From a virus, in the IMG/VR virus record IMGVR_UViG_3300027985_000378, positions 1 through 23,520 of that record: 23,520 nt of DNA, one strand, 5' to 3'. Under the pieces are notes generated by a model, which was given only the letters and a program-made list of their open reading frames with translations, searched no databases and was not told the DNA's origin. The position numbers and the translations under genes are program-made. Below are positions 3,855-7,285 of this stretch, piece by piece; positions within the stretch are counted from its first letter, which is position 1, and each line of letters begins with the position of its first letter.

Positions 3855-3946
3855 CCCGCTTCGAATTCCTGCGCGCATCGGTCGCGCTGCTCGCAGTGAG
3901 CGCCATCCCGGCGCTCGCAATTTTGGCTGCAGGGGGTGCGTGGTGA
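3851..3946 (+). CDS. 31-residue single-helix membrane peptide
   Basis: ATG at 3851 overlaps the previous stop (ATGA) and is preceded by GGGGAGG. The reading frame gives a basic N-terminus (MTRFEFLRA) followed by one hydrophobic stretch of about 20 residues (SVALLAVSAIPALAILAAGG) and a terminal tryptophan. It could be a small inner-membrane peptide. Its stop overlaps a GTG start (GTGA), which keeps the coupling chain unbroken and supports translation. No function is assigned; it is too short for homology-based claims. Confidence 0.5.
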   Translation: MTRFEFLRASVALLAVSAIPALAILAAGGAW

Positions 3947-4626
3947 AGCGCGAATTACGCATCAGCAATCCGAAGCTCGTCAACCTGGCAAAGCTCAACG
4001 GCATCGGCGAGCGGCGCGCGTGGGGCAAGCGCGCGAACGGCACGAACAGGATCGGAACGTTCGTGAGCGCGGACGAGCTAGAGCGCCTCAACGCACTGCG
4101 CACAGAGCAGGTCAAGCGCGCCAAGCCCGGAGAATGGAGGGCGCAGATCGAGCGCGAGATCGCCGGCTCAACCTCGACTGAGCGCACGATCCACCTCGGC
4201 CAGCACAGCAGCCACTACGGCCGGATCTGCGTCGATCTCGGGATCGGCAAGCACGTCCCGCCTCCGACGAATCATCGCATCTCCGCTCAGGTCGGCTGGT
4301 TCGTCTCTCCGGTAGAGATGCGAGCCATTTTCGATGAGGCCGACAGGCGCGCGACAGATCGCAGTTGCTCTCGAGTGGTCGCCTCGACGCCAGTCTATCG
4401 CGCCCAAGAGCGCACCGAGGAGGCGTGGCGCGACGAATGCGCGGACCCGTACTCGGTGCGCACTCCAGAGGAGGCGTGGACCTACGCTGTCAGGCTCTAC
4501 ATGGGCATCGAGGATGCGGATCGGATGCCACCGATGCCGCTCGATCCGCCACCCAGGCAGCGGCGCGACATCGAGCGGTACTGCCGGCGCAGCTGCTACG
4601 GAGCAGAGCTTGGGACCGCGTCATGA
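3943..4626 (+). CDS. hypothetical protein (227 aa)
   Basis: The GTG at 3943 is chosen because it overlaps the preceding TGA (GTGA) and begins a plausible N-terminus, (M)KRELRISNPKLVNLAKLNG. The protein is basic in its first third (GERRAWGKRANGTNRIG), mixed in the middle, with an aromatic patch near EEAWTYAVRLYMGIEDADRM and a C-terminal CRRSCYG pair. I see no catalytic motif and no known domain. It lies between small early proteins and a DNA methylase, all coupled, so an accessory early role is likely. Confidence 0.6.
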   Translation: MKRELRISNPKLVNLAKLNGIGERRAWGKRANGTNRIGTFVSADELERLNALRTEQVKRAKPGEWRAQIEREIAGSTSTERTIHLGQHSSHYGRICVDLGIGKHVPPPTNHRISAQVGWFVSPVEMRAIFDEADRRATDRSCSRVVASTPVYRAQERTEEAWRDECADPYSVRTPEEAWTYAVRLYMGIEDADRMPPMPLDPPPRQRRDIERYCRRSCYGAELGTAS

Positions 4627-5362: not shown

Positions 5363-6250
5363 ATGGCTGGGCGCATGGACTGGATCGCAGTCTCGGTCGA
5401 TCTCGCCGACCACCCGAAGGTCGCCGCGCTTGAGTTGGAACTCGGCGAGGAGCGCGTTGAGGCGTACCTCGTGCGCCTCTGGGCGTTCTGCGGTCGGCTC
5501 GTTTCGGATGGGATTCTCCGCGGAGATTCCGCGGAGATCTCCGCGGAGAAGGCGAGCGGATGGCGCGGACCCTCCGGCACGCTTGTCGACGCGCTGCTGA
5601 AAACTGGCTGGCTCGACAGGACGGAAGACGGGCTCCGCGTCCACGACTGGAAAGACCACGCAGGGCGCCTGATCGAAAAAGCTGAGAAAGAACGGGCGCG
5701 TAAGCGAACAGCCTACCAATCGTCGGGTTCCATTCTCCGCGGAGATTCCGCGGAGATTCCGCGGAAATCGCGCGGAGACTCCGCGCTTTCTCCGCCCATA
5801 GAGGTAGAGGTAGAGAGAGAGGTAGAGAAGATAAAGACTCTTGCGCCGAGTCGTACCGACTCGCCGCCGGCGGCAGGCATCGCGCCGCTCCCATGCGTCG
5901 GCGATGGGGCTCACGAGTTCTCGCCGACCGAAGCGCAGGTCGCCGAGTGGCGCACTGCCTTCCCGGCCGTCGACGTGCTCGCCGAGCTCCGCAAGGCGGG
6001 CGCGTGGCTCAACGCCAACCCCGCCAAGCGCAAGACCGCACGCGGGATGCCGCGCTTCCTCGTCGCGTGGCTCGGCCGCGCCCAGGACTCTCCGCAGCGT
6101 GCGGCCGCGGCCAAGGCCAGTAGGCCAGACCCAAACGAACTGCAGCGGCGGTGGGATGCGGACCCGACGGGTGGATGGAGCGAGAGCCCGGCATTTGCGA
6201 GGAACCTCGATGGACCGGATAGCGGCAAGCGTGAAGGTGACCTGTTTTGA
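5363..6250 (+). CDS. phage replication initiator (O-like), carries internal origin repeats
   Basis: The N-terminus (MDWIAVSVDLADHPKVAALE) and following helices resemble the winged-helix N-terminal domains of phage replisome organisers, with a GTLVDALLKTGWLD element around residues 72-85. The C-terminal half after a low-complexity linker (residues 145-180) would contact the helicase loader. The gene lies directly before a DnaC-like gene, as lambda O precedes P. Two copies of the peptide ILRGDSAEI (residues 51-59 and 124-132) are encoded by CCGCGG-centred iterons, so the coding sequence doubles as the origin. ATG at 5363 follows the upstream TAG directly. It overlaps the loader gene by 41 bases. 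Role assigned by fold resemblance, context and iterons. Confidence 0.7.
   Translation: MAGRMDWIAVSVDLADHPKVAALELELGEERVEAYLVRLWAFCGRLVSDGILRGDSAEISAEKASGWRGPSGTLVDALLKTGWLDRTEDGLRVHDWKDHAGRLIEKAEKERARKRTAYQSSGSILRGDSAEIPRKSRGDSALSPPIEVEVEREVEKIKTLAPSRTDSPPAAGIAPLPCVGDGAHEFSPTEAQVAEWRTAFPAVDVLAELRKAGAWLNANPAKRKTARGMPRFLVAWLGRAQDSPQRAAAAKASRPDPNELQRRWDADPTGGWSESPAFARNLDGPDSGKREGDLF
5513..5836. other. probable replication origin: CCGCGG iterons plus purine-rich tract
   Basis: Cluster A (5515-5549) has three CCGCGG-centred units at 5518, 5529 and 5541; two of them are the full palindrome TCTCCGCGGAGA. Cluster B has three at 5737, 5748 and 5759, followed by a perfect 8-1-8 inverted repeat at 5770-5786 (GCGCGGAG-A-CTCCGCGC). 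A 26-bp block (5513-5538) is repeated exactly at 5732-5757. The 11-12 base spacing places sites on one DNA face. Just after, 5801-5836 is an almost pure purine, AT-richer strand built on GAGGTA repeats, like the easily melted part of the lambda origin. The array lies inside the initiator gene, as in lambda O. Confidence 0.65.
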
Positions 6251-6902
6251 CGAGGAGCCGGAGCTGACTGGCGAGCAGCGCAAGGCCGCGCACGAGGCGG
6301 CGCAGGAGCGGCGGCTCGCAGAGCACCTGCAGCAGTGCGGCGCACCGCGGCGCGTGGTCGAATCGATCTCGACTGGCGGGCTGCGCGAGACGGCGGCAAT
6401 CCTCGGCGTGCGGCAGTGGCTGCGCTCGGGGCTGACCTTCTGCTCGCTCGACGGCGGGGTCGGCACCGGCAAGACGCTGGCCGCCTGCCAGGTGCTGCGG
6501 ATGGCTCGGCGCGGAACCTACTTCTACGCCGACGACGGCTCGATCCTCACGTCGTGGTCGTACTCCTCGCGCGAGGGTCTCTTCGTTCGCGCTGCCGAGC
6601 TCGCCTCGACGTCGCCATACGCCGAGGAGGGCAAGGGCCAGTGGGCACGGGTCCGCGACGTGTCGCTGCTCATCCTCGATGACCTCGGGGTGGAGCGGAT
6701 GGACAACGCAGGCATCTGGGCACAGCAACTCGACATGCTCATCGATGCTCGGTACGCGGGCCGACTGCGGACGATCATCACCAGCAACCTCGACCGCGCG
6801 GCTTTCATTGAGCGCTACGGGGCGCGCGTGATGGATCGCCTCGAGAGCGATGGGCTTCGGGTCGCGTGTGGTGGCGATTCGCTTCGCGGGAGGTCGGTAT
6901 GA
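6210..6902 (+). CDS. DnaC/IstB-like helicase loader ATPase (230 aa)
   Basis: AAA+ ATPase features are clear: Walker A GGVGTGKT (residues 82-89), Walker B LLILDDLG (153-160), sensor I TSNL (191-194) and a downstream GARVMDRLESDG segment carrying the probable arginine finger (R206). The N-terminal 75 residues would contact helicase or initiator. Such proteins load host DnaB onto melted origin DNA. The ATG at 6210 has GAGGA six bases upstream; the frame is open further back only within the initiator gene, which it overlaps by 41 bases. No phage DnaB is visible, so use of the host helicase is likely. It is more like DnaC than a transposase-associated IstB by context. Confidence 0.85.
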   Translation: MDRIAASVKVTCFDEEPELTGEQRKAAHEAAQERRLAEHLQQCGAPRRVVESISTGGLRETAAILGVRQWLRSGLTFCSLDGGVGTGKTLAACQVLRMARRGTYFYADDGSILTSWSYSSREGLFVRAAELASTSPYAEEGKGQWARVRDVSLLILDDLGVERMDNAGIWAQQLDMLIDARYAGRLRTIITSNLDRAAFIERYGARVMDRLESDGLRVACGGDSLRGRSV

Positions 6903-7285
6903 GCGGCCGCGCATCGAGAGAGAAAGGCAAGCGCGGTGAGCGGCAGACGGTCGCCGAGCTCGCCGAGGTGTTCGGCGCCGCGGTGAAGCGCGGGCTATCG
7001 CAGTCGCGCTCCGGCTCAGAGTGCCCCGACGTCGAGCTTCCACCCGGCGTGCCGCTGTGGGTCGAGGTCAAGACGCAGCAGCGAGTCAACGCTCGGGCCG
7101 CGCTCGAGCAGGCGCGCGAGGCCATTGACGCGCAGTACGCCGCGTTCGAAGCGGCACCGATGCCGCTGGCCGTCTGCCGCGACACCGGAAAGCGCGTCGT
7201 GGCGGCGATGTACCTGGACGATCTGCGCGTGCTGCTCAAGCGCTGGTGGGATCTCGAACAGAAGGCAAACGGAGGTGACCAATGA
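6899..7285 (+). CDS. PDDEXK-superfamily nuclease, possible Holliday junction resolvase (128 aa)
   Basis: The N-terminus REKGKRGERQTVAELAEVFG supplies the conserved Glu of the first helix (E14), followed by QSRSGSECPDVELP with the Asp (D44) and LWVEVKTQQR with the E-x-K pair (E56, K58). This arrangement matches small PDDEXK enzymes such as Hjc-like resolvases and phage nucleases. A metal-dependent endonuclease acting on recombination or replication intermediates is the natural reading, given its place right after the helicase loader. It overlaps both neighbours by four bases (ATGA). Substrate specificity cannot be judged from sequence. Confidence 0.68.
   Translation: MSGRASREKGKRGERQTVAELAEVFGAAVKRGLSQSRSGSECPDVELPPGVPLWVEVKTQQRVNARAALEQAREAIDAQYAAFEAAPMPLAVCRDTGKRVVAAMYLDDLRVLLKRWWDLEQKANGGDQ

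Follow-up and report, generated by a model that had tools for sequence, protein, structure and literature searches.

A putative phage replication origin of 11-bp iterons within the gene that encodes its initiator

The window, meaning the whole stretch of DNA that was analysed, is a virus record of 23,520 bases (IMG/VR IMGVR_UViG_3300027985_000378, positions 1 to 23,520). It carries a replication block, and the initiator gene of this block holds two clusters of the octamer TCCGCGGA followed by a weak tract:

5363..6250, + strand: phage replication initiator gene, 295 aa (PHROG profiles, AF2 model)
5513..5538, + strand: 26-bp block ATTCTCCGCGGAGATTCCGCGGAGAT, copy 1, in cluster 1, coding for winged-helix residues 51-59
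5517..5547, + strand: iteron cluster 1, TCCGCGGA at 5517, 5528 and 5540
5732..5757, + strand: 26-bp block ATTCTCCGCGGAGATTCCGCGGAGAT, copy 2
5736..5801, + strand: iteron cluster 2, with exact TCCGCGGA at 5736, 5747 and 5758 followed by three degenerate units, all six in 11-bp register
5798..5837, + strand: purine-rich TAGAG tract, proposed unwinding element (none of 23,480 windows is weaker; z 4.2)
6210..6902, + strand: DnaC-like helicase loader gene, directly 3' of the initiator gene (phrog_50, E 5e-23)
6899..7285, + strand: RusA-like / PDDEXK nuclease gene, following gene in the replication block (phrog_244, E 1.5e-13; PF24608, E 9.7e-5, under the PF24608 cut-off)

At 3907-4626, a 239-aa ORF without Pfam or PHROG match lies between an antirepressor gene and a methyltransferase-like gene.

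The original prediction described the initiator gene as O-like, a description that could not be upheld: among Pfam and PHROG results up to E 0.1 the protein has no match to the lambda O family, and its family is phrog_9474, whose profile matches the N-terminal domain (residues 5-121, E 7.9e-24), with further matches to the PHROG initiation families phrog_3926 (E 7.7e-12) and phrog_2509. The score for Phage_rep_org_N (PF09681) was 14.2 bits and thus below the curated Pfam cut-off of 23.3, NCBIfam gave no match, and a sequence search of the PDB gave no relative. In the AF2 model (mean pLDDT 90 over residues 1-125), the N-terminus is predicted to form a winged helix at residues ~1-95 (helix 33-46, strand 51-53, helix 57-65, recognition-type helix 73-80, strands 84-87 and 90-93), followed by a long helix, a poorly structured linker and a C-terminal domain at ~185-265. 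Fold comparison with the PDB returned DnaD (2vn2; Z 4.8, rmsd 3.1, 81 aligned) and an initiator (4pt7; Z 5.0, rmsd 3.7, 87 aligned); no match stands out, all being common winged-helix matches, and no structural family is claimed from them. The gene looks mosaic, with an N-terminal domain resembling those of Myxococcus phage Mx9 and Paenibacillus phage Harrison and a C-terminal WLNANPAKRKT domain matching Vibrio phages and Ruminococcus phage phiRgIBDN1. Searches with the whole protein found L004 as the sole match among viral contigs and no match in bacterial genomes; with aligned N-terminal domains as the query, 35 were found.

The six copies of TCCGCGGA in the 23,520-base window all lie within gene 5363-6250. 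As predicted, they form two clusters of three CCGCGG-centred repeats with steps of 11-12 bp, and an exact 26-bp duplication begins at 5513 and 5732, 219 bp apart and in frame, encoding ILRGDSAEI at residues 51-59 and 124-132. Cluster 2 had been counted as three repeats, and three exact copies are present, but three more degenerate units (CGCGCGGAGAC at 5769, TCCGCGCTTTC at 5780 and TCCGCCCATAG at 5791) continue in the 11-bp register. Similarly, the repeats had been described as in frame; the two 26-bp blocks are, but the 11-bp units are not, as the six octamers occupy all three codon phases and contribute to the peptides LRGD, SAEI, SAEK, LRGD, SAEI and IPRK. Because an 11-bp step places copies in every codon phase, the repeated entity is the DNA and not the peptide. 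In the predicted fold, cluster 1 encodes residues 52-63, comprising the first strand and the start or most of the helix preceding the recognition helix; its proposed location in the DNA-binding domain is therefore right with respect to the winged helix but does not extend to the recognition helix. Cluster 2 sits in the poorly structured linker.

When the gene was recoded synonymously with the protein fixed, drawing on the phage's own codon usage, none of 20,000 trials yielded six octamers (mean 0.29, maximum 3), and recoding of single clusters yielded three octamers in 27 of 200,000 trials for cluster 1 and 11 of 200,000 for cluster 2. The 11-bp period at 5731, in cluster 2, is the strongest short periodicity of the window and lies above that of all 2,000 recodings. 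Dinucleotide shuffles of the whole window, a comparison in which clustering is ignored, reached six octamers in 1 of 100 cases.

The purine-rich tract noted after the repeats is present immediately 3' of cluster 2 at 5798-5837 (ATAGAGGTAGAGGTAGAGAGAGAGGTAGAGAAGATAAAG), and in the suggested unwinding-energy profile, calculated from nearest-neighbour energies, no other 40-bp stretch of the window is as unstable as this tract. It has 40% G+C and is rich in purines, not A+T-rich. Across 37 initiator genes, 23 have a linker window in the top 1% of their locus for instability (2,000 control draws gave a mean of 9.3 and a maximum of 20), including 15 of the 26 genes picked by protein alone. When 250 bp around the array were compared in 28 initiator genes, the weakest tract lay on the downstream side in 23 of them, with a median distance of 25 bp. 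The cumulative GC skew, likewise suggested as a check, has its minimum at 2859, near a coding-direction switch; it is not diagnostic and gives no support to the origin. The gut-phage initiators L007 (1495-2361) and L014 (1495-2346) have linkers with AGAGTAGACC-type repeats (RVDQTRVDQSR, RVDKTRVDKTR), which in L007 run in more than one reading frame. The TAGAG tract of the window, these AGAGTAGACC-type linkers and AACC-type tracts elsewhere suggest a common strand-biased unwinding tract.

Two further loci bear on whether DNA or peptide has been retained. The nearest relative, L036, is about 41% identical across the N-terminal domain and has the 14-mer ATTCTCCGCGGAGA in both clusters. Homologues keeping the peptide while the CCGCGG bases drift at synonymous positions had been named as evidence against the original prediction, and L036 does not show such drift: the 14-mer is kept, and the codon at identical residues is shared with the window at 14 of 18 positions inside the clusters and 22 of 44 outside, although these numbers are small. 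Two parts of the original prediction are thus supported, namely an origin within the initiator gene and constraint on the DNA bases themselves. In L037, the 24-mer GTGTCCGCGGACTGTCCGCGGACA occurs in the winged helix and in the linker, 188 bp apart, and is read in frames 1 and 0 as RVRGLSADSL and VSADCPRTSS; L037 thereby separates DNA from peptide, which the 26-bp pair of the window cannot do, since its two blocks share one frame. The iteron word and two-cluster layout had been considered new, but the word occurs in other phages and the layout in L036 and L037, and the spacing of 219 bp that had been singled out in the window is not conserved, being 188 bp in L037 and 291 bp in L036. At the winged-helix site of cluster 1, L036 has a 12-residue insert, and the L078 gene (2240-2824) has a long imperfect repeat run there, after D-G-I-I, with a linker that is then TAGAG-rich; the 12-residue insert and the much longer repetitive one indicate that this site tolerates inserted repeats.

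Scanning IMG/VR for pairs of TCCGCGGA 11 bp apart gave 27 stretches, with 23 distinct loci. PHROG placed L017, L019, L020, L021, L022, L026, L029, L035, L036, L037, L040, L041 and L042 among initiator, primosomal or replisome-organiser genes, these 13 loci spanning several distinct PHROGs; L024 matched an O-like family in its C-terminal half only, and L030 had no PHROG match. When repeats were masked and one phmmer rule was applied throughout, another initiator was matched at 12 of the 23 loci, compared to 7 of 24 for TCCGCGGA at steps of 9, 10 or 12 and 7 of 81 at longer steps, whereas two control words at step 11 gave 0 of 19 and 2 of 44; the resulting difference (12/23 vs 2/63 pooled, Fisher p 6e-7) is partly circular, because the queries included initiators found by the iterons and none found by the control words. 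At least seven of the 11-bp loci (L018, L027, L028, L032, L033, L034 and L038) showed no sign of an initiator gene, so the word by itself is no proof of an origin. A looser scan for three TCC-NN-GGA units (TCCNNGGA) found initiators at 16 of 42 distinct loci, the commonest middles being AC, GC and TT, and many of its non-initiator loci resemble unrelated repetitive sequence. Six records (L252, L261, L264, L266, L276 and L280) contain TCCAAGGAA-type 11-bp repeats with short overlapping ORFs unlike phage genes, and are possibly non-phage repetitive sequence in the viral collection. Among 84,980 genomes of bacteria and archaea, a three-copy pattern matched once, at L043, without sign of an initiator gene. 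An idealised array searched against cultured phages by blastn gave chance-level matches only, and Arthrobacter phage Coral gp62 and its relatives, as well as one unannotated record, were set aside as such.

Homologues chosen by protein carry frame-breaking linker repeats with other words, often at an 11-bp step, e.g., four copies of CGACCGCCGGA at this step in L049, with further cases in L050, L069 and L077, indicating that the 11-bp step and the layout are commoner than the word TCCGCGGA. No significant short-period repeat was found in some homologues of the wider set, such as L045, L052 and L071. The initiator linker of Vibrio phage VaK (L010, 1090-2082) has five in-frame 24-bp repeats (PENGTLNR).

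Since in-gene iterons, an adjoining weak tract, a winged-helix initiator and a loader gene beside it make up the anatomy of lambda ori and SPP1 oriL, we conclude from the sequence that the array is probably the replication origin of the phage, embedded in its initiator gene (probability about 0.85). The arrangement as a whole recurs in unrelated phages. By analogy, it most likely works like origins of the lambda O and SPP1 gene 38 kind but in a non-O initiator family. The winged helix of the initiator would bind the 11-bp iterons TCCGCGGA of cluster 2, which, with about one TCCGCGGA per helical turn, would be presented on one face of the helix, and cluster 1 may help or control this binding by offering extra sites, by looping or through self-regulation. 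The nucleoprotein complex would then strain and open the weak purine tract at 5798-5837, where initiator and DnaC-like loader could place the host replicative helicase and replication would start. As the 23.5-kb record is possibly incomplete, the genome may have an origin elsewhere as well.

Alternatively, the repeats could form an autoregulatory operator, at which the initiator or another phage regulator blocks transcription of the initiator gene while replication starts elsewhere. Regulators typically bind palindromic octamers such as these, the first cluster falls in the early part of the gene, and sequence cannot separate operator from origin. However, an operator has no need for the locally weakest DNA, yet such DNA follows the arrays in 23 of the 28 initiator genes, and the confinement of every octamer of the window to the initiator gene also speaks against it. 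We consider it unlikely that an operator is the whole explanation, and the two roles are compatible.

A functionless expansion by tandem slippage, retained as a harmless disordered peptide in a tolerant linker, would agree with the poor structure of the linker in the model and with the variable length of this region across homologues. It does not explain why the same octamer is found in unrelated phages and protein families, why there are two separated clusters with one in a folded domain, why the 24-mer of L037 occurs in two frames or why the degenerate units hold register, and such an expansion appears very improbable. The idea that ILRGDSAEI is a needed protein motif, with the DNA repeat as its by-product, draws on a winged-helix motif of the family at this place, ~D-G-x-hydrophobic-x-G-x-S/T-A-E/D (epsilon15 DGFLDGYSAETL, L029 DGSLAGFTAEDIA), to which the cluster 1 peptide is similar, and part of cluster 1 may be protein-driven. 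In cluster 1, protein and DNA demands thus seem to coincide, part of the peptide being expected from the family (~D-G-x-x-x-G-x-S/T-A-E/D). On the other hand, the copies encode the differing peptides LRGD, SAEI, SAEK and IPRK, the octamers do not arise from synonymous recoding, and L037 retains the DNA and not the peptide; that peptide-level selection produced the repeats is extremely improbable.

Beyond the single locus, we speculate that TCC-NN-GGA every 11 bp represents a widespread unnamed iteron class in tailed-phage initiators of several unrelated families, some with a second array in the sequence coding for the winged helix; the binding sites of the DNA-binding domain would then form part of its own code, and both arrays might act together by looping or pairing. 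We give this generalisation somewhat less than even odds. Open-access literature yielded the in-gene origins of lambda and SPP1 but not the 11-bp iteron class, of which an earlier description is possible; the in-gene kind of origin is known, whereas the 11-bp TCC-NN-GGA class, its cross-family recurrence and the winged-helix array were not found there. An 11-bp TCC-NN-GGA array inside an initiator gene, with a weak, often strand-biased tract ~25 bp downstream, could serve as a signature for likely origins in many uncultured phages, and one stretch of bases would both encode protein and supply presumed sites for protein binding, in one of its parts inside the very domain that binds DNA.

In phage lambda, the iterons of ori are located mid-gene O and followed by a weak tract, with the loader gene adjoining, and in the Stx phages P27 and 933W extra iterons are extra initiator residues (PMC7466680). 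The window resembles lambda ori in its iterons inside the initiator gene, the weak tract after them and the adjoining helicase-loader gene, and the parallel drawn in the original prediction therefore holds for the anatomy, though the initiator is outside the O family and has no sequence match to lambda O families. Lambda has one array of four iterons (six in Stx phages), which are longer, imperfect inverted repeats, whereas the window has two clusters of 11-bp units around an 8-bp palindrome, and its weak tract is purine-rich where that of lambda is A+T-rich. In SPP1, oriL consists of direct repeats and an unwinding element inside initiator gene 38, with a separate helicase loader (gp38 / gp39 / gp40) (PMC6316719). 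The window is like oriL in its in-gene layout and separate loader, the features compared; a further SPP1 origin lies about 13 kb from oriL, whereas no such second array is present within the 23.5-kb record. Closer to the window in protein, the phrog_9474-type initiators Mx9 p49 and Harrison gp65 have a related N-terminal domain (36-38% identity) and, at the equivalent place, repeats in the linker or a weak tract with strand bias, but with other words (CCCCCCTGAAACCCC twice in Mx9, ACCTAACCTAA in Harrison) and without a winged-helix TCCGCGGA cluster. L036 and L037 resemble the window in carrying TCCGCGGA in the linker as well as in the winged helix, with the weak tract downstream, and differ in the distance between clusters and, in L036, by the insert. 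With several near-identical repeats inside the initiator gene, a low-stability duplex adjoining them and a loader gene beside, the window shows sequence features of origins of the lambda ori and SPP1 oriL kind, in which the initiator would also bind the repeats and replication would start there.
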